Source of the DNA: Porphyromonadaceae bacterium COT-184 OH4590 | Lineage (GTDB): Bacteria > Bacteroidota > Bacteroidia > Bacteroidales > Paludibacteraceae | Assembly: GCA_000768855.1 (NCBI GenBank) | Contig: JRAN01000052.1 | Location: forward strand, 62,001 to 126,000 | DNA: 64,000 nt | Direction: 5' to 3' | In this document: in pieces, positions 50,531 through 63,789 of the stretch | Layout: every line of letters begins with the position of its first letter | Position numbering within the stretch: position 1 is the stretch's first letter | Notes under the pieces: generated by a model | Told to the model about the DNA's origin: nothing | Databases searched by the model: none | What the model saw: only the letters and a program-made list of their open reading frames with translations | Made by a program: the position numbers and the translations under genes

Positions 50531-52129
50531 ATGACACCTGCTGTATCTGTTTTAATGCCCTGCTACAATAATGCTACTTACGTGGCTGAAGCTATTGATA
50601 GCATGTTGAATCAAACCTTTACCGATTTCGAGTTGATTATATTAGATGATTGTTCTTCGGACAACTCGGCGGAGGTTATCAAAGGCTTTACCGACAAACG
50701 CATTGTTTATCACCACAACGAACAGAACACAGGACTTGCCAACAACCTAAATATCGGCCTACAAATGGCTCGGGGTAAACTTATTGCACGTATGGACGGA
50801 GACGATATTTCGCTACCCGAAAGACTGCAAACGCAAGTTGATTTTCTCGAAGCACACCCCGATATAGACCTATGTTCGTGCGGTATGGAGATGTTCGGCA
50901 AAGACAACAAAGTGTGGCTACGAGAACCCAACCCCGAAGATGTAAAAATAACGATGCTTTTCTACTCGCCCATACTGCACGCTTCAGCTATGTGGCGTAG
51001 GGAGGCGTTCGACCGACACGGATTAATATATCGTCAAGAGGCGTTCCCTGCCGAAGATTACGACCTGTGGGCGAGAGCTGTGGCAAGCGGTTGCCGTTTG
51101 GCAAACATTCCCCAAGTACTTTACCGCTATCGTATTCATGGCGAACAGGTTACAAAAACCGATGATAGAGCCGCCATTCACAATAGAGAAATCAAAATCA
51201 GATATTTACAACAGTGTATGCCGTCTCTCTCAGCAATCGATTGCGAGCGTTGTGTCGATAATTTCTTAAAACCATTGGAGAGTTCGGCAAAAAATATTAA
51301 AGAACAAAAGGATCTCTATAGGGCTATAATTAAGGCAAACGAGAATGATAAGTTTTTTGACCACAATAGGCTGAAAACCAAATTAAAACGATTTTATCAA
51401 AACATACTCGTAACACAATTCGAAACAGAAACTTGTTCAGTATCAAAATTATGTTACTCATTCGATTTAAGGCTAAAACAGCTTATACTATTATTATTCC
51501 CTTATATTCAAATGATTAAACACAAAAACTTATCTTTTACAAAAACTTTCCGCTTGTGGCTTAAAATGCAACCTCCAAAAAGAAATTTTATGGTTGTGCA
51601 TCGCAAGACAGGCTTAAATATTGCAAAAAGTGCAAAAATATATGTTGCTAATGGTAAATTGACTATCAACAAAAGTTGGTCGAAAGGCGACCCTTTTGCA
51701 AGCTATCTATTTATGGCTGAAGATGCAATATTAAAAGCAGAGGACAGTTTCGACATATACTCGGGAGCAAAGATTTATATAAACCGAGGGGCACAACTAT
51801 CTTTGGGCGGTGGCTATATCAATCACAATGTAAATATCAGTTGTTTTAAGAAAATAGAGATTGGTAAAGGTGTAGTGATTGGCGAAAATGTAACCATACG
51901 AGACAGCGACAATCACAATATAGTTGGTTCGACCAAAGCATTTACACAACCTATAAAGATAGGTAATCATGTATGGATAGGGTTAAATGTTACTATTCTC
52001 AAAGATGTAACCATCGGTGATGGAGCTATAATAGCAGCTGGCTCAGTAGTAACTAAAGATGTACCTCCGCATAGCATAGTGGCAGGAGTACCTGCAAAAG
52101 TAATAAAAGATAATGTACAATGGAGATAA
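50531..52129 (+). CDS. Fusion: GT2 glycosyltransferase plus left-handed beta-helix acetyltransferase
   Basis: This 532-aa protein joins two enzymes. Residues 1-225 are a GT2 domain: [41 protein letters not shown] with the DxD-like metal site, and [10 protein letters not shown]. Residues 225-340 are a linker with a hydrophobic patch. Residues 345-532 are hexapeptide repeats ending in [17 protein letters not shown] and the CapG/maltose acetyltransferase signature [14 protein letters not shown]. The histidine expected of this class is in [10 protein letters not shown]. It would add a sugar and O- or N-acetylate a glycan. It is the first gene of the cluster and overlaps the next by 10 bases. Confidence 0.9.
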
Positions 52130-57251: not shown

Positions 57252-58664
57252 ATGCTCAACTATTTTCCAAAATATTTCACCTCAAAAGCCATCACGCTAT
57301 ACTTTATTGCGTTAATTGCCATATCTGTGGCTTTTAGTCAATATAGTATGAGTGCATTGTGGATAGTCTTCGGAATGGTCGAAGTAGTGAGCTTTTTCTA
57401 TTTTGTAAATATTTTAACAAAACGTTGGTCTTTACTACCCGAAAAGCTGTTTATCAAACGGTTGTTCACTTCTGCTCTGTTTTTGCGTTTGGCATGGGTA
57501 GTGTTTAGCTACTTTTTCTACCAAGCTATGACAGGACAACCCTTTGAATTTGAGGCTGCAGACGCCATCGGTTATCACGGGAACGGAGAGTGGGGCGCTA
57601 TCAATTTCAAAAAAGGCAATTTCAATCTTCCTGCCATATTTGGTTGGCTGGAGGTGTCTGATATGGGTTATTCCACATATCTGTCTATTTTATATGTAAT
57701 TACGAACAACAGTATAATTATAACACGTTTAATAAAAGCTATTTTAGGGGCTTGGACGTGTGTGATTATTTACAAAATATCCCTTCGCAATTTTGGCGAC
57801 AATGCGGCTCGTATTTCGGCTATAATCTGTATGTTATGGGCAAATTTTATCTATTACACAGGGTTGCATCTCAAAGAGACGGAGATGATATTCCTTGTAG
57901 TTGTATTCATAGAGCGAGCCGACTTTCTTCTACGGGCTAATAAAATCACATTACGCAATCTGATTGCTCCTATACTAATAGGAGCAATGCTATTCACATT
58001 TCGTACAGTCTTGGGTGTTACCGCACTATTTTCGCTACTAACTGCCCTGATGCTTGTTTCGTCGAAGTCTATAAAAAAGCGATGGAAACGTCCCCTGATA
58101 ATAGTATGGTTGGCTGTTGCCGTATCCTACTTCATGGGTGGACGTATAGCTACCGAAGTCGAAGAGGTGTGGGCAAACCGAACCGACAACCAGAGGACCT
58201 CTATGGAGTGGCGAGCAGGACGTCAGGGGGGCAACAAGTTTGCCAAACATATGAGTGCTGCGATATTTGCCCCTGCTATCTTTGCTATTCCTGTACCTAC
58301 TATGATACATTTAGATGGGCAAGAAAACCAACAAATTATACACGGAGGAAACTATATAAAAGAGATTTTGGCTTTCTTCTTATTGTTTGCATTTATTGTG
58401 GTTATCAAAAACAAAAAATGGCGTGATGTCTCTATCTTAGAAGCTTTTCTGTTGGGTTATTTAATAATAATCGCTTTTAGTGCTTTTGCCCAATCCGAAA
58501 GGTTTCATCTACCGGCTATGCCTTGTTATATCATATTGGCGGGTTATGGCATAAGTAATATTACCGATAAACAAAAGAAATATTTTAACCGGTATATGGT
58601 AGTACTGTTTGTAATTATCGTAGCGTGGAACTGGTTTAAACTTGCAGGTAGAGGATTGGTTTAG
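57252..58664 (+). CDS. Multi-pass membrane protein, GT-C/polymerase-like
   Basis: This 470-aa protein has about ten to eleven membrane helices. An acidic patch in the first external loop, FEFEAADAIGYHGNGEWG (about 98-115), resembles the ExD/DxD-bearing loop of GT-C enzymes that use polyprenyl-phosphate sugars. A later external loop (about 290-330) is charged (ATEVEEVWANRTDNQRTSME). It could be a GT-C glycosyltransferase or an O-antigen polymerase (Wzy-like); Wzy proteins are too variable to decide. It starts 4 bases after the GT4 gene. Confidence 0.7.
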   Translation: MLNYFPKYFTSKAITLYFIALIAISVAFSQYSMSALWIVFGMVEVVSFFYFVNILTKRWSLLPEKLFIKRLFTSALFLRLAWVVFSYFFYQAMTGQPFEFEAADAIGYHGNGEWGAINFKKGNFNLPAIFGWLEVSDMGYSTYLSILYVITNNSIIITRLIKAILGAWTCVIIYKISLRNFGDNAARISAIICMLWANFIYYTGLHLKETEMIFLVVVFIERADFLLRANKITLRNLIAPILIGAMLFTFRTVLGVTALFSLLTALMLVSSKSIKKRWKRPLIIVWLAVAVSYFMGGRIATEVEEVWANRTDNQRTSMEWRAGRQGGNKFAKHMSAAIFAPAIFAIPVPTMIHLDGQENQQIIHGGNYIKEILAFFLLFAFIVVIKNKKWRDVSILEAFLLGYLIIIAFSAFAQSERFHLPAMPCYIILAGYGISNITDKQKKYFNRYMVVLFVIIVAWNWFKLAGRGLV

Positions 58665-58697: not shown

Positions 58698-59621
58698 ATG
58701 AGAGTATTAATAGTTTGCAGCAAAAATTCGGGTAATATAGCACCATTTATAATAGAGCAGGTCGAGGCACTAAATCATCTTGGCATAGAAACCGAATACT
58801 TCACTATTAAACAAAAAGGTGTAATAGGATATCTAAAGAGTCGAAAATCACTACTTAAAACGATAGCCAATTACAAACCTGATTTACTGCATGCTCACTT
58901 CGGGCTATCCGGACTTCTGGCTAACCTACAACGCAAAGTACCTGTTGTTACCACATATCATGGCAGCGACATTAACAACAATGCCATATTTAGGTTTTCG
59001 AAATGGAGTATCAGACTATCGTCTTATAATATTTTTGTATCGAAAAAAAACTACGATAAGGCAGCAAAAAAACACCTCAAAGCAACCGTAATACCTTGTG
59101 GTGTCGATACAAACACATTTTTCCAAATAGATAAAATAGAGGCTCGACAACGAATGGGCTTAGACCTCGACGAACATTTGGTACTATTCTCTAGCTCTTT
59201 TAAAAATAACGTAAAAAATCCCGAATTGGCTAAAGCAGCGGTACAGAAGTTGGGTGGCATACGACTTATCGAACTTGCAGGCTATAGTCGGCAAGAAGTG
59301 GCATTATTGATGAATGCAGTCGATGTGTGCCTTATGACAAGTCATACCGAAGGTTCACCCCAATTTATCAAAGAAGCTATGGCGTGTGGCTGCCCGATTG
59401 TATCGGTCAAAGTGGGCGATGTAAGCGATGTTGTAGGAGACACTCACAACTGTTTTATAACAGATTACAAAGCAGACGAAATTGCAGATAAATTACAGAT
59501 AGTTATGAGCAATAACCAGAGAAGTAATGGCATAGACAAGATAACATCAATGAGATTAGATAAAATATCTATTGCCAATAGAATATTCGACGTTTATAAA
59601 ACAATTACTCAAAACCGGTGA
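58698..59621 (+). CDS. GT4 family glycosyltransferase
   Basis: This 307-aa protein is a short GT-B enzyme. The N-terminal part has MRVLIVCSKNSGNIAPFIIE, LLHAHFGLSGLLANL and VVTTYHGSDINN; the C-terminal part has TVIPCGVDTNTF, then CLMTSHTEGSPQFIKEAMAC and GCPIVSVKVGDVSDVVG, the E-x7-E donor site. It overlaps the FemAB-like gene by four bases, so the two are coupled. Confidence 0.93.
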   Translation: MRVLIVCSKNSGNIAPFIIEQVEALNHLGIETEYFTIKQKGVIGYLKSRKSLLKTIANYKPDLLHAHFGLSGLLANLQRKVPVVTTYHGSDINNNAIFRFSKWSIRLSSYNIFVSKKNYDKAAKKHLKATVIPCGVDTNTFFQIDKIEARQRMGLDLDEHLVLFSSSFKNNVKNPELAKAAVQKLGGIRLIELAGYSRQEVALLMNAVDVCLMTSHTEGSPQFIKEAMACGCPIVSVKVGDVSDVVGDTHNCFITDYKADEIADKLQIVMSNNQRSNGIDKITSMRLDKISIANRIFDVYKTITQNR

Positions 59622-60634
59622 TGACACATACTTTACCGATTGACGACATAGATATAAACGATTGGAGAGAGTTAGTACAAAACTCCTCTACGACATCCTA
59701 TTTCCAAACACCCGAATGCTATGAGTTTTTTCGTTCCTTATCTTTTTTAGATACATTTGGTTGGGCCGTTTATACAAATGGTACAATTAAAGGTTTGGTA
59801 TGCGGTTATATAACGGCAAACGGCGGAAAAATCAAGCAATATTTGTCACGTCGTGCCGTTATACACGGAGGATTATTATTGGCGAAAGATGTTAAAGACG
59901 ATGAAATATCTGTTTTGCTGGCTATGTTGAAAAATGATATTAAGCACAAAATTATATATTTAGAGATAAGGAATAATAATGATTATTCAAAATACAGACA
60001 TATATTCAGCAGAGAAGGATTCGAGTACAAACCTCATCTTAATTACATTGTGGATACCTCTGTAAATATTTCAAAAATCCGAGAACAATACAGTGAAAGC
60101 AAAAAAAGACAAATACGCAAAGCTAAAGAGCAAAATGTAACATGCCTTCTCACTAATAATCAAGACGATATCGATACGTTCTATAAACTTTTATACAAAT
60201 TGTATAAAACAAAAATAAAAAAACCGCTTTTCCCGAAAGAATTTTTTGATAATTTTGTAAAAATATCTAATTCTCATCTTTTTGTAGTAAAAAAAGATAA
60301 AACAATAATAGGTGGCATTGCATGTGTTGCATTAACTAACAAAGTATTATACGAGTGGTTTGTCTGTGGAGATACGGTAAATTTCAATCGCTTGTATCCG
60401 TCTGTTGTTGCAACAAACTCGGCAATCGAATTTGCTTGTAATAAAGGCTTTGAGAAGTTCGATTTTATGGGAGCAGGCAATCCCAACGAGAGTTATGGAG
60501 TGAGGGAGTTTAAAGGCAAGTTCGGAGGCAACCTCGTAGAGTACGGACGATTTATTTACATAGCCAACTGCACACTTTATAGATTAGGTAAAACTATTAT
60601 TAACAAACGATTATTGTTTACAAAAAATAAATAA
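59618..60634 (+). CDS. FemAB / GNAT-like acyl- or aminoacyl-transferase
   Basis: This 338-aa protein has the double-GNAT FemAB/FemX fold: NSSTTSYFQTPECYEFFRSL (substrate pocket), YIVDTSVNISKIREQYSESK followed by KKRQIRKAKEQNV, VVKKDKTIIGGIACVALTNK, and the C-terminal LYPSVVATNSAIEFACNKGF then DFMGAGNPNESYGVREFKGK. Classical FemAB proteins move amino acids from tRNA to lipid II; in glycan clusters, relatives probably acylate or aminoacylate sugars. Which donor is used cannot be told. It is the last gene of the tightly coupled block. Confidence 0.86.
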   Translation: MMTHTLPIDDIDINDWRELVQNSSTTSYFQTPECYEFFRSLSFLDTFGWAVYTNGTIKGLVCGYITANGGKIKQYLSRRAVIHGGLLLAKDVKDDEISVLLAMLKNDIKHKIIYLEIRNNNDYSKYRHIFSREGFEYKPHLNYIVDTSVNISKIREQYSESKKRQIRKAKEQNVTCLLTNNQDDIDTFYKLLYKLYKTKIKKPLFPKEFFDNFVKISNSHLFVVKKDKTIIGGIACVALTNKVLYEWFVCGDTVNFNRLYPSVVATNSAIEFACNKGFEKFDFMGAGNPNESYGVREFKGKFGGNLVEYGRFIYIANCTLYRLGKTIINKRLLFTKNK

Positions 60635-60740
60635 ATTGATTTTCAAACACCAAAATACATGTGTATTTACTATTAAAATAATAATGAAAAAGTCTCTTTG
60701 AGATTTAAATTTAAAGAAAAATAAAATTAAATATTTAATT

Positions 60741-61889
60741 ATGAAAAAAGGAGCAATTGTTTTAGAAGGGCATATACAAGGGTTATCAAATACACGATCT
60801 TTAGGAGAATTGGGTATCCCTGTCTATGTAATTGACAAAAATTACTGTTTAGCACAATTTTCAAAATATTGTAAAAAATACTTTCGTTCACCAAGTTTTC
60901 AATCTGAAGAGTTTATAACATTTTTGATATCAATCGCGAAAAAATATCAACTTAAAGGCTGGATGCTTATCGCCAGTAATGATCACATAGTAGAAAACTT
61001 GTCCATTAATTATGACAAATTAGCCCCTTATTTCAAGATGCTTGTACCACATAAAGATAATATTTACAATATTATAAACAAAAAAAAACTTATGGAGTTA
61101 GCAGAAAAAAGTGGAACAAATACTCCTGCAACATGTTACCTTAATAATATAGAAAATGCAAGAAAATTTAGATTTCCATTACTTATAAAAGGAAATCTCG
61201 GATTATCTTTCTACAAAATTATACATAATAAAGCTATTCAAGTTAACAATATTGAAGAATTAGAAATAGTAGTAAATAAAGTTTCTGATGTTACAAATGA
61301 TTTTATGATACAAGAATTGATTCCATATGATAGAAACAATAAAGTAGTATCTTTTACCTGTTTTGCAGAAAAAGGAGAAATCAAAATATATTGGATGGGA
61401 CAAAAGATACGTGAGCATCCTATAAAATACGGAACAGCAACAAGCAGTCAGAGTATTATAATACCCGAAGTTTTAGAATCAGCCAAACCTTTGATTGCTT
61501 CTTTAAATTACACAGGTGTTTGTGAAATAGAATTTATTTACGATTGCCGTGACAATGTTTATAAGTTAATCGAAATCAACCCCAGAACTTGGTTGTGGGT
61601 TGGTCTAGCAAAAGCATGTGGAATTGATTATGCGAAAATAATGTATAACTACCTTATGCATATACCACAAAAATACACACAAGAATATAAATTAGAAGTA
61701 AAATGGATCAATTGGTTTACAGATATTATTTATGGCTTTATAGCTATAATAAAAAAACACATTTCTATAAAAGAATATTTCTCATCTTTAAAAGGGAAAA
61801 AAATAAATGCAATATGGACTTGGAACGATATATTGCCTGGTGTTATTTTCCCTTTTATGTTATTATATATAATAATAAAAAGAAGATAA
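60741..61889 (+). CDS. ATP-grasp carboxylate-amine ligase
   Basis: This 382-aa ATP-grasp enzyme should form an amide or peptide bond through an acyl phosphate. An N-terminal Rossmann-like part (GAIVLEGHIQGLSNTRSLGE) is followed by the lid/ATP domain: KKKLMELAEKSGTNTPATCY, FPLLIKGNLG (lysine for ATP), MIQELIPYD, and C-terminal VCEIEFIYDCRDNVYKLIEI then NPRTWLWVGLA, with the metal-ligand Glu and Asn. The last 60 residues include a hydrophobic helix (GVIFPFMLLYIIIKRR). It starts a very AT-rich pair with DUF354 and lies 106 bases after the FemAB-like gene. Confidence 0.88.
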   Translation: MKKGAIVLEGHIQGLSNTRSLGELGIPVYVIDKNYCLAQFSKYCKKYFRSPSFQSEEFITFLISIAKKYQLKGWMLIASNDHIVENLSINYDKLAPYFKMLVPHKDNIYNIINKKKLMELAEKSGTNTPATCYLNNIENARKFRFPLLIKGNLGLSFYKIIHNKAIQVNNIEELEIVVNKVSDVTNDFMIQELIPYDRNNKVVSFTCFAEKGEIKIYWMGQKIREHPIKYGTATSSQSIIIPEVLESAKPLIASLNYTGVCEIEFIYDCRDNVYKLIEINPRTWLWVGLAKACGIDYAKIMYNYLMHIPQKYTQEYKLEVKWINWFTDIIYGFIAIIKKHISIKEYFSSLKGKKINAIWTWNDILPGVIFPFMLLYIIIKRR

Positions 61890-61893
61890 ATAT

Positions 61894-62985
61894 ATGAATA
61901 TATTAGTTGATATTGGACATCCTGCACATGTACATCTTACAAAAAATTTGATCAAGGAACTTATTAAAAAAGGACATCATGTTATTATTACTGCTAAAAC
62001 TGTTCCTATTATAGAAAGATTATTAAAAACAGAATCTTTAGATTATATTTTATTAGGGAAAAAAGGAAAATCAATTGTATCAAAAATACTTCACCAAATA
62101 AAATTTGATATTAAGATACTATGGATATGCATTAAACATAAAATTAACATTGGCACAGGAGTTTCTGCCTCTATAACAAGAATTTCTCGTCTATGTAAAA
62201 TGTCATCAATAAATTTAGATGATGATGATGATGAGGTGCAATCTATAATGGTTAATTTTTCGCATCCATTCACAGATATAAGACTAACCCCATCTGCTAT
62301 AATAGGACATAGAAAATCAAAAAGAGCTCTTTTTTATGAAGGTATTCATGAATTAGCTTATCTTCATCCAAATAGATTCACTCCCAATGAGAAAGTTATA
62401 CAAGAAATTGGTCTGAGTAAAAAAGATCGTTTTTTTATAATGCGTTTTGTTACTTTTAATGCATACCATGATGCAAATCATAAAGGTTTATCTTTTGAAC
62501 AAAAGAAAAAACTTATAGATCTATTAAGTGAATATGGAAGAGTAATCATAACTTCAGAATACCCAATTGAAACAGAATTTGAAAAATACCGACTACCTAT
62601 TCCTCCCGAAAAAATACATTCTTTAATGTATTTTTCTACTTTATTCATAGGAGATAGTCAAACTATGACATCCGAAGCAGCTATTATGGGAGTTCCTGCT
62701 TTTAAATGTAATACTTTTGCAGGTATATTATCCGTACCAAACGAATTAGAGAACAAGTATCATTTATGTTACGCTTATACACCAGAAGATTTCGATAAAC
62801 TATACAATCATATAAAAGAGTTACTTCAACAACCAGATTTTAAAAAAGAGTGGCTTTTTAAAAAAGAACAATTTATTGCCGACAAAATAGATGTTACAGC
62901 CTTTTTGGTATGGTTTATAGAAAACTATCCCGAAAGTGCCAAGATAATGAAAGAAAATCCCGATTACCAATTTAAGTTTAGATAG
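61894..62985 (+). CDS. DUF354 family protein (GT-B-like fold)
   Basis: This 363-aa protein begins MNILVDIGHPAHVHLTKNLI, the hallmark of DUF354, a family related in fold to UDP-GlcNAc 2-epimerase and MurG. GTGVSASITRISRLCK and a DDxxE-like site made of five aspartates and a glutamate (about 109-114) follow. Then come RFVTFNAYHD and the C-terminal SLMYFSTLFIGDSQTMTSEA, and VPAFKCNTFAG. Activity is not established for the family; a glycosyltransferase role is likely. It starts 4 bases after the ATP-grasp gene and ends directly against the next ATG. Confidence 0.87.
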   Translation: MNILVDIGHPAHVHLTKNLIKELIKKGHHVIITAKTVPIIERLLKTESLDYILLGKKGKSIVSKILHQIKFDIKILWICIKHKINIGTGVSASITRISRLCKMSSINLDDDDDEVQSIMVNFSHPFTDIRLTPSAIIGHRKSKRALFYEGIHELAYLHPNRFTPNEKVIQEIGLSKKDRFFIMRFVTFNAYHDANHKGLSFEQKKKLIDLLSEYGRVIITSEYPIETEFEKYRLPIPPEKIHSLMYFSTLFIGDSQTMTSEAAIMGVPAFKCNTFAGILSVPNELENKYHLCYAYTPEDFDKLYNHIKELLQQPDFKKEWLFKKEQFIADKIDVTAFLVWFIENYPESAKIMKENPDYQFKFR

Positions 62986-63789
62986 ATGGATTTTACGATA
63001 AAAACATATGAACGACTGTTAAAAAGCTTTTTGACAAATGGTTATTCGCTTATAACATATCAACAATATTGTAAGCAAAAACCCGAAGGAAATTTCGTTA
63101 TACTTAGGCACGATGTAGATGAAATAGCCAATAATGCACTGAAAATGGCTAAAGTAGAGCATCGCTTGGGTATAAGTGCAACATACTATTTCCGAATCGT
63201 AAAGCAGAGCAACCAACCTAACATTATCAAAGCAATATCCGCGCTTGGACATGAAATAGGCTACCACTATGAGGATTTAGCTTTTACCAAAGGCGATTTG
63301 CAACAAGCTCGCAAAACTTTCGAGAAAAATCTCACCTATTTTAGAGAATTTTATCCTGTTTGCACTGTCTGTATGCACGGCAGTTCTACCTCAAAATACG
63401 ACAATCGTGAGTTTTGGCGGGCATTCTCCCTTAGCGATTTCGGGTTAATAGGTGAACCTTATCTTACTACCAACTTCAAAGACATTTTTTACTTTACCGA
63501 CACAGGTTACGCTTGGGATGGAGGCAAATATGCTGTCCGCGATATAGTAGAAGATAGCTTCGGAATTTCGTTCCACTCGTCAGATGAGATAATAAGAGCG
63601 GTTGAGAAAGGCGACTTTCCACCACAATGCCTGATGCTGGCTCATACCTTATGGAGCGATAACATTATGCAATGGACATTATTGCACATACGAGAATTTA
63701 TCCGTAACAATCTTAAATACTTAGCCATGCGCAATAAGTTTTTGCATAACATATATGGGAGAATGGTAAAAGCATATTGGAAAAGATAA
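62986..63789 (+). CDS. Polysaccharide deacetylase-fold (NodB/WbmS-like) protein
   Basis: This 267-aa protein has the metal-dependent deacetylase pattern: FVILRHDVDE (36-45), with Asp pair and His; GHEIGYHYEDLAF, where a His and Asp/Glu complete the metal site; and CMHGSSTSKYDN. There is no signal peptide, so it works in the cytoplasm, as proposed for WbmS-type enzymes of O-antigen loci. It may deacetylate an amino sugar, exposing an amine for the ATP-grasp or FemAB-like enzyme; that is inference. Its ATG follows the DUF354 stop with no gap. Confidence 0.85.
   Translation: MDFTIKTYERLLKSFLTNGYSLITYQQYCKQKPEGNFVILRHDVDEIANNALKMAKVEHRLGISATYYFRIVKQSNQPNIIKAISALGHEIGYHYEDLAFTKGDLQQARKTFEKNLTYFREFYPVCTVCMHGSSTSKYDNREFWRAFSLSDFGLIGEPYLTTNFKDIFYFTDTGYAWDGGKYAVRDIVEDSFGISFHSSDEIIRAVEKGDFPPQCLMLAHTLWSDNIMQWTLLHIREFIRNNLKYLAMRNKFLHNIYGRMVKAYWKR

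Follow-up and report, generated by a model that had tools for sequence, protein, structure and literature searches.

Near the end of a 64,000-nucleotide stretch of DNA from Porphyromonadaceae bacterium COT-184 OH4590 (contig JRAN01000052.1, positions 62,001 to 126,000; hereafter the window, from a genome of 2.39 Mb), four genes lie in a row that encode a FemAB/GNAT-type transferase, an ATP-grasp ligase, a DUF354 protein and a deacetylase. They close a run of polysaccharide-type genes that starts at 50531 and includes GT2-type and acyltransferase-like membrane protein genes (assigned by reading the sequence), and form the end of an O-antigen/exopolysaccharide-type operon. A preliminary description had presented the four genes as an undescribed glycan decoration module. 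The genes are:

59618 to 60634, + strand: FemAB/GNAT-type transferase, VimA-like by family (FemAB PF02388, E 2.4e-11)
60741 to 61889, + strand: ATP-grasp carboxylate-amine ligase, PRK12767/CPSase type (CPSase_L_D2, E 3.2e-5)
61894 to 62985, + strand: DUF354, GT-B-fold enzyme (PF04007, E 5.3e-17)
62986 to 63789, + strand: CE4/NodB-type deacetylase, VimE-like by family (profile and predicted fold)

The gaps between them are 106, 4 and 0 bases, so that the coordinates and the tight spacing of the last three genes stand as first described. The 106-base gap between FemAB and ATP-grasp is AT-rich, and a search for a terminator-like signal within it gave no match. FemAB may start with GTG at 59618 or, equally likely, with ATG at 59621, which overlaps the preceding stop codon (TGATG). 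The first three family assignments lie above the Pfam cut-offs, with 43.6 bits against a cut-off of 24 for FemAB and 62.4 against 22 for DUF354, a protein of 363 amino acids that was found once in the genome at E 0.001. The FemAB protein also matches TIGR03019 (1.7e-7), at 30.6 bits far under the curated cut-off of 260.35.

The deacetylase was assigned by other means, its own Pfam match (0.065) being under the cut-off. A profile built from 66 relatives reaches the CE4 structures 7y51 (7.2e-5) and PgdA 2c1g (1.8e-4). A predicted model (mean pLDDT, the predicted local distance difference test, of 76; built with four sequences) matches PplD (Z 12.1, root-mean-square deviation (rmsd) 3.1, 174 residues aligned), IcaB (Z 11.6, rmsd 3.4, 173 aligned) and WbmS (Z 10.5, rmsd 4.1, 182 aligned). 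The NodB/CE4 assignment is therefore correct. H42, D43, D45, H89, H94, D172, W177 and H220 are invariant in 66/66 sequences, and so are the HDVD-type motif and the first His of the HxxxH motif. The protein has no obvious signal peptide. Its N-terminal 34 residues align with the end of the chain in ordinary CE4 enzymes, which suggests a circularly permuted CE4 fold.

The DUF354 model (pLDDT 71, weak at residues 109-152) has a GT-B fold, as had been proposed, and its best structural matches are UDP-GlcNAc 2-epimerases (Z 20-23), including a UDP-2,3-diacetamido-glucuronic acid 2-epimerase (Z 21.4, rmsd 4.5, 312 aligned). The sequence profile reaches MurG (1.7e-6) and WecB (4.1e-5). Within the SEA..GxP segment E261 and G266 are invariant in 61/61 sequences, which would fit nucleotide-sugar binding. 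By sequence the window's protein does not fall in the WecB/WbpI family: an NCBIfam search down to matches of E 0.1 was negative, and a profile comparison with one WecB aligned 37 columns only, with a probability of 5; the fold is nonetheless alike. A role as a plain 2-epimerase is weakened because WecB-type genes already adjoin DUF354 in many loci.

The families were searched in two samples, one of 296 genomes from the phylum and one of 101 genomes from the family of the window's genome (own family below). Within the phylum sample DUF354 was present in 21 genomes, the deacetylase in 15 (window's genome included), FemAB in 10 and ATP-grasp in 29. Deacetylase and DUF354 occurred together in 11 of them (p 1.3e-11; without the window's genome 10, p 1.4e-10; both values ignore relatedness and incomplete genomes), in all 11 on the same contig and within 6 kb. 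Own-family counts were 44 genomes for DUF354, 57 for the deacetylase, 58 for FemAB and 13 for ATP-grasp; the deacetylase was accompanied by FemAB in 53 (odds ratio 103) and by DUF354 in 38 (odds ratio 12.7). We then gathered 83 Bacteroidota loci, selected for holding a deacetylase or DUF354 (L-numbers denote gathered loci or stretches, C-numbers contigs of the window's genome). FemAB, DUF354 and deacetylase stood together in 32 of these, all four families in three only: the window, L074 and L075. Among 73 deacetylase genes, 23 lie directly 3' of DUF354, and in two others DUF354 and deacetylase are domains of one protein; the gap ranges from -4 to +15 in 20 of 25 adjacent pairs. The fusions (L088:9383-11305 and L090:8238-10160; two genomes of one genus) join DUF354 residues 3-361 and deacetylase residues 387-638 in one protein of 640 amino acids. 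Upstream of both lie a separate second DUF354 gene and a FemAB gene.

The common gene order is PMT-GT4-FemAB-x-DUF354-(WecB)-deacetylase-initiating sugar transferase. Here GT2, GT4, PMT, UDPGDH, DegT, Wza and Wzc are names of clusters whose representatives alone were scanned. The association exceeds chance, for genomes with one family strongly tend to have the others, and the genes keep a similar order and spacing; FemAB, DUF354 and deacetylase are a recurrent module. DUF354 is the core partner of the deacetylase, a role overlooked in the earlier interpretation. Co-occurrence held for three families; a fixed four-gene module was not supported, because all four meet in only 3/83 loci and the ATP-grasp protein of L074 belongs to a different Pfam family, ATP-grasp_3. 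As to the sampling, 54 of 61 own-family deacetylase places were fetched; the other seven were six partial matches and the place in the window itself. Three weak genomes were excluded from the 21 phylum genomes with DUF354. From other searches four genomes with partial, split or weak matches were excluded; L067 was excluded because it duplicates the stretch of contig in L005, and L116 was kept though its broken deacetylase frame gave no anchor.

A deacetylase beside a FemAB/GNAT-like transferase recalls a described pathway. According to excerpts of a paper published in 2020 (PMC7468200), C-termini of cargo of the type IX secretion system (T9SS) are amide-bonded to 2-N-seryl-3-N-acetylglucuronamide in Porphyromonas gingivalis and to 2-N-glycyl-3-N-acetylmannuronic acid in Tannerella forsythia. 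Synthesis of these linking sugars involves WbpA/B/E/D together with VimE, a putative CE4 enzyme that deacetylates, and the FemAB/GNAT-like VimA, which adds Ser or Gly; VimA matches TIGR03019, and its exchange switched serine to glycine (PMC7468200). The window's genome shares further parts of this pathway (PMC7468200, PMC13086638, as excerpted). A WbpD-WbpB pair, for the 3-acetamido step, lies on the window's contig about 64 kb away (C48:55443-57032; WbpB 6.5e-114 to 3oa2, WbpD-like 3.1e-69 to 3mqg), together with two UDP-sugar dehydrogenases (L127:13915-16534), candidates for the WbpA dehydrogenase. The T9SS translocon SprA is encoded on another contig (2925.6 bits), and a protein on the window's contig (L128:16809-18347) carries the T9SS tail TIGR04183 (33 bits against a cut-off of 23). 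Near the deacetylase in 53 own-family loci we found WbpD-type genes in 14, WbpE-type in 13 and WbpB-type in 8, and many module relatives have a UDP-GlcNAc 2-epimerase beside it. An initial idea, that nearby genes for a sugar transferase, an aminotransferase and an acetyltransferase make diNAcBac (N,N'-diacetylbacillosamine), gave way to these Wbp-type genes. The locus differs in its DUF354 and ATP-grasp genes, which the excerpts of PMC7468200 and PMC13086638 do not list for the pathway. DUF354 as VimF was set aside: VimF, compared by description, is a 'glycosyltransferase type 1' of 47 kDa in the excerpt of PMC3663753, larger than the 363 residues of DUF354.

Given the same enzyme types, the TIGR03019 match, the Wbp pair and the T9SS genes in the genome, the core of the module probably works like VimE and VimA. 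We put the chance at slightly better than even (about 0.55) that it is a Vim-type module making an aminoacyl-sugar, with a T9SS-anchoring role like that described for P. gingivalis and T. forsythia. Gene content, order, fusion, families, folds, co-occurrence and the Wbp and T9SS genes of the genome are observed, whereas each reaction, the identity of the amino acid and the use for T9SS are inferred. The cytoplasmic deacetylase would strip an N-acetyl group from a (di)acetamido sugar, and FemAB would move an amino acid, probably from aminoacyl-tRNA, onto the exposed sugar amine. DUF354, whose gene abuts or is fused to that of the deacetylase, would handle the same sugar, by transfer to a lipid-linked glycan or, less likely, by epimerisation, with ATP-grasp as an accessory ligase that would alter the substituent. 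The free amine of the amino acid could then be the joining point for T9SS cargo C-termini on a surface glycan; such a use is plausible. Deacetylation followed by aminoacylation, as first proposed, is right in kind, but this VimE/VimA logic has been in print since 2020 (PMC7468200, as excerpted), and therefore the core is not undescribed. The link to T9SS and Wbp genes had not been foreseen.

Several points weigh against a Vim-type, T9SS-directed module. The deacetylase does not have both His of the canonical CE4 motif HxxxH: in 66/66 sequences L, M, V, F, I or W stands in place of the second one, at position 98, so that its catalytic activity is a prediction. A WbpE-type aminotransferase (DegT-type) was not found on C48 or C16:1-20000, the rest of the genome not having been searched. 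At least two of WbpB, WbpD and WbpE are nearby in 13/53 own-family loci only, many loci being cut by contig ends. The likeness to VimA and VimE is one of enzyme families and published descriptions, and the co-occurrence p values take no account of relatedness. SprA is present in 96/101 own-family genomes and the deacetylase in 57/101; the module, patchy beside a near-universal SprA, therefore does not track T9SS, and T9SS presence, being near universal in this family, was uninformative as a correlate. Finally, L006, L007 and L047 have the module beside export genes, presumably Wza and Wzc, which suggests an exopolysaccharide.

Because the module is patchy, Wbp genes are near it in a minority of loci and export genes adjoin it in L006 and L007, the main rival is ordinary decoration of a repeat unit, in which one sugar of an O-antigen or exopolysaccharide would receive an acyl group or an amino acid, without any part in protein anchoring. 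It would agree with the position of the module at the close of an operon of glycosyltransferase-type genes and with the initiating sugar phosphotransferase that follows the deacetylase in 31/73 cases. That the genome also encodes Wbp proteins and a T9SS speaks against it, as does the use for T9SS linkers published for the enzyme pair (excerpts of PMC7468200), and we regard repeat-unit decoration as possible but clearly the less likely explanation.

The ATP-grasp gene is an accessory, optional insert between FemAB and DUF354. Residues E262, E264, E278, N280, P281 and R282 of its product are invariant in 6 sequences, and E262, E264, E278, N280 and R282 (E, ExNxR) we take to be the Mg/ATP residues of ATP-grasp ligases. 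The closest relatives of ATP-grasp (85%) and DUF354 (88%) are in strain H1 (L005), whereas the deacetylase is nearest to L074 (73%) and L078 (71%) and only 43-44% to strain H1; the window locus is therefore a mosaic. In strain H1, ATP-grasp, DUF354, WecB and deacetylase genes form a stand-alone operon outside any polysaccharide cluster. ATP-grasp and FemAB had appeared to be mutual alternatives, exclusive in the first 24 loci except the window. This was dropped since all four own-family genomes with a strong ATP-grasp match (E < 1e-70) also have FemAB, adjoining in L135.

The contents of the slot vary. Three genomes from two families carry a phosphatidylserine-decarboxylase-like gene (PF02666) beside their ATP-grasp and DUF354 genes: L065:7711-8529 (E 1.1e-38; order ATP-grasp, decarboxylase, DUF354, deacetylase), L066:11216-12025 (E 3.7e-35; ATP-grasp, DUF354, decarboxylase, DUF354, deacetylase) and L135:2329-3138 (E 4.8e-36; FemAB, ATP-grasp, decarboxylase, DUF354, UDP-sugar dehydrogenase). 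These genes raise the question of a decarboxylated amino acid in the linker. The slot of L074 holds the ATP-grasp_3 protein, a gene of a HAD-type cluster, named from its L075 member, a HAD hydrolase, and a third gene (cluster 45) that we take to be ketoacyl-synthase-III-like. A doubtful reading, offered tentatively, is that the slot would act as a variable cassette and change how the link is made, giving several unrelated Bacteroidota routes to a cargo-receiving amine, with DUF354 as a dedicated linking-sugar transferase. ATP-grasp would then ligate an amino acid, e.g., in the form of phosphoserine or onto a uronic carboxylate; the decarboxylase, where present, would convert that amino acid to a simple amine. 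A glucuronyl-C5-epimerase-like protein beside DUF354 or ATP-grasp in L052, L055, L057, L060, L063, L064, L065 and L066 (PF06662 in L052, the other seven by clustering) hints at uronic-acid polysaccharides.

FemAB could also be an acyl-CoA or acyl-ACP (acyl carrier protein) acyltransferase, so that acetyl would be swapped for another acyl group and ATP-grasp would act elsewhere. The FemAB protein matches Acetyltransf_6 (GNAT; Pfam, 1.4e-9), and the L074 slot with its ketoacyl-synthase-III-like, ATP-grasp and HAD-cluster genes would suit such chemistry. The Protein Data Bank matches of the FemAB profile, however, are FemA, FemX and an aminoacyl-tRNA-dependent peptide synthase, and the altered amino acid after VimA exchange (excerpt of PMC7468200) likewise argues for aminoacyl transfer, which makes an acyltransferase improbable.

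Two genes precede FemAB in the window:

57252 to 58664, + strand: membrane protein of 470 amino acids with weak PMT_2/GT22 similarity (Pfam 0.006, below cut-off)
58698 to 59621, + strand: GT4 glycosyltransferase, overlapping FemAB 3' of it (Glyco_transf_4, Pfam 4.8e-16)

The cluster of the PMT-like protein is present in 16 loci, and it recurs as a neighbor in the order PMT-GT4-FemAB; GT4 is a recurrent FemAB neighbor in the gene order of relatives. Past the window end the same strand carries a gene for a hexapeptide acetyltransferase and, a short way on, one for another polysaccharide deacetylase, this one of the ordinary kind (L003:6697-7644; PF01522, 2.6e-20); similar proteins lie 3' of the module in L074 and L078. 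A protein of about 590 amino acids (cluster 7; L134:12194-13990, on C16), for which a Pfam scan gave no match, adjoins SprA in the window's genome; in many relatives its neighbor is the deacetylase/sugar-transferase cluster.

Among other known systems, mycothiol and bacillithiol are made by triads of glycosyltransferase, deacetylase and amino acid ligase. Their logic of glycosylation, deacetylation and aminoacylation is alike, but the enzyme families are different and the module would yield a polymer sugar instead of a thiol. XrtA/PEP-CTERM exopolysaccharide loci combine FemAB, deacetylase, amidotransferase, sugar transferase and export genes. L006 has this set, with FemAB, DUF354, deacetylase and an amidotransferase that matches TIGR03108 under the cut-off, the family to which WbpS was assigned (excerpt of PMC7468200); the window differs in that its FemAB is under the TIGR03019 cut-off and its deacetylase is of another branch. 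Prevotella intermedia also has an amino-acid-bearing T9SS linker, an N-alanyl-dHex sugar, but lacks VimA and VimE, and its route of alanine transfer is stated to be unknown (PMC11969387, as excerpted).

Literature searches found no paper combining DUF354, ATP-grasp, deacetylase and polysaccharide, none linking FemAB, ATP-grasp and exopolysaccharide, and none linking ATP-grasp and type IX secretion; papers on pairs among deacetylase, ATP-grasp and DUF354 look unrelated, judged by title, and a search for DUF354 itself mostly hit longer names such as DUF3540. What is new here is DUF354 as the core partner of the deacetylase, and the accessory ATP-grasp, followed in three other genomes by a decarboxylase-like enzyme. 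Fusion and synteny thereby tie DUF354, a family of unknown function, to a deacetylase of VimE-like type, and the Vim-type enzyme pair is extended from oral pathogens to a family with both enzymes in 53/101 sampled genomes. ATP-grasp enzymes become candidates for the chemistry of such linkers, where a gap is acknowledged in the case of P. intermedia (excerpt of PMC11969387).

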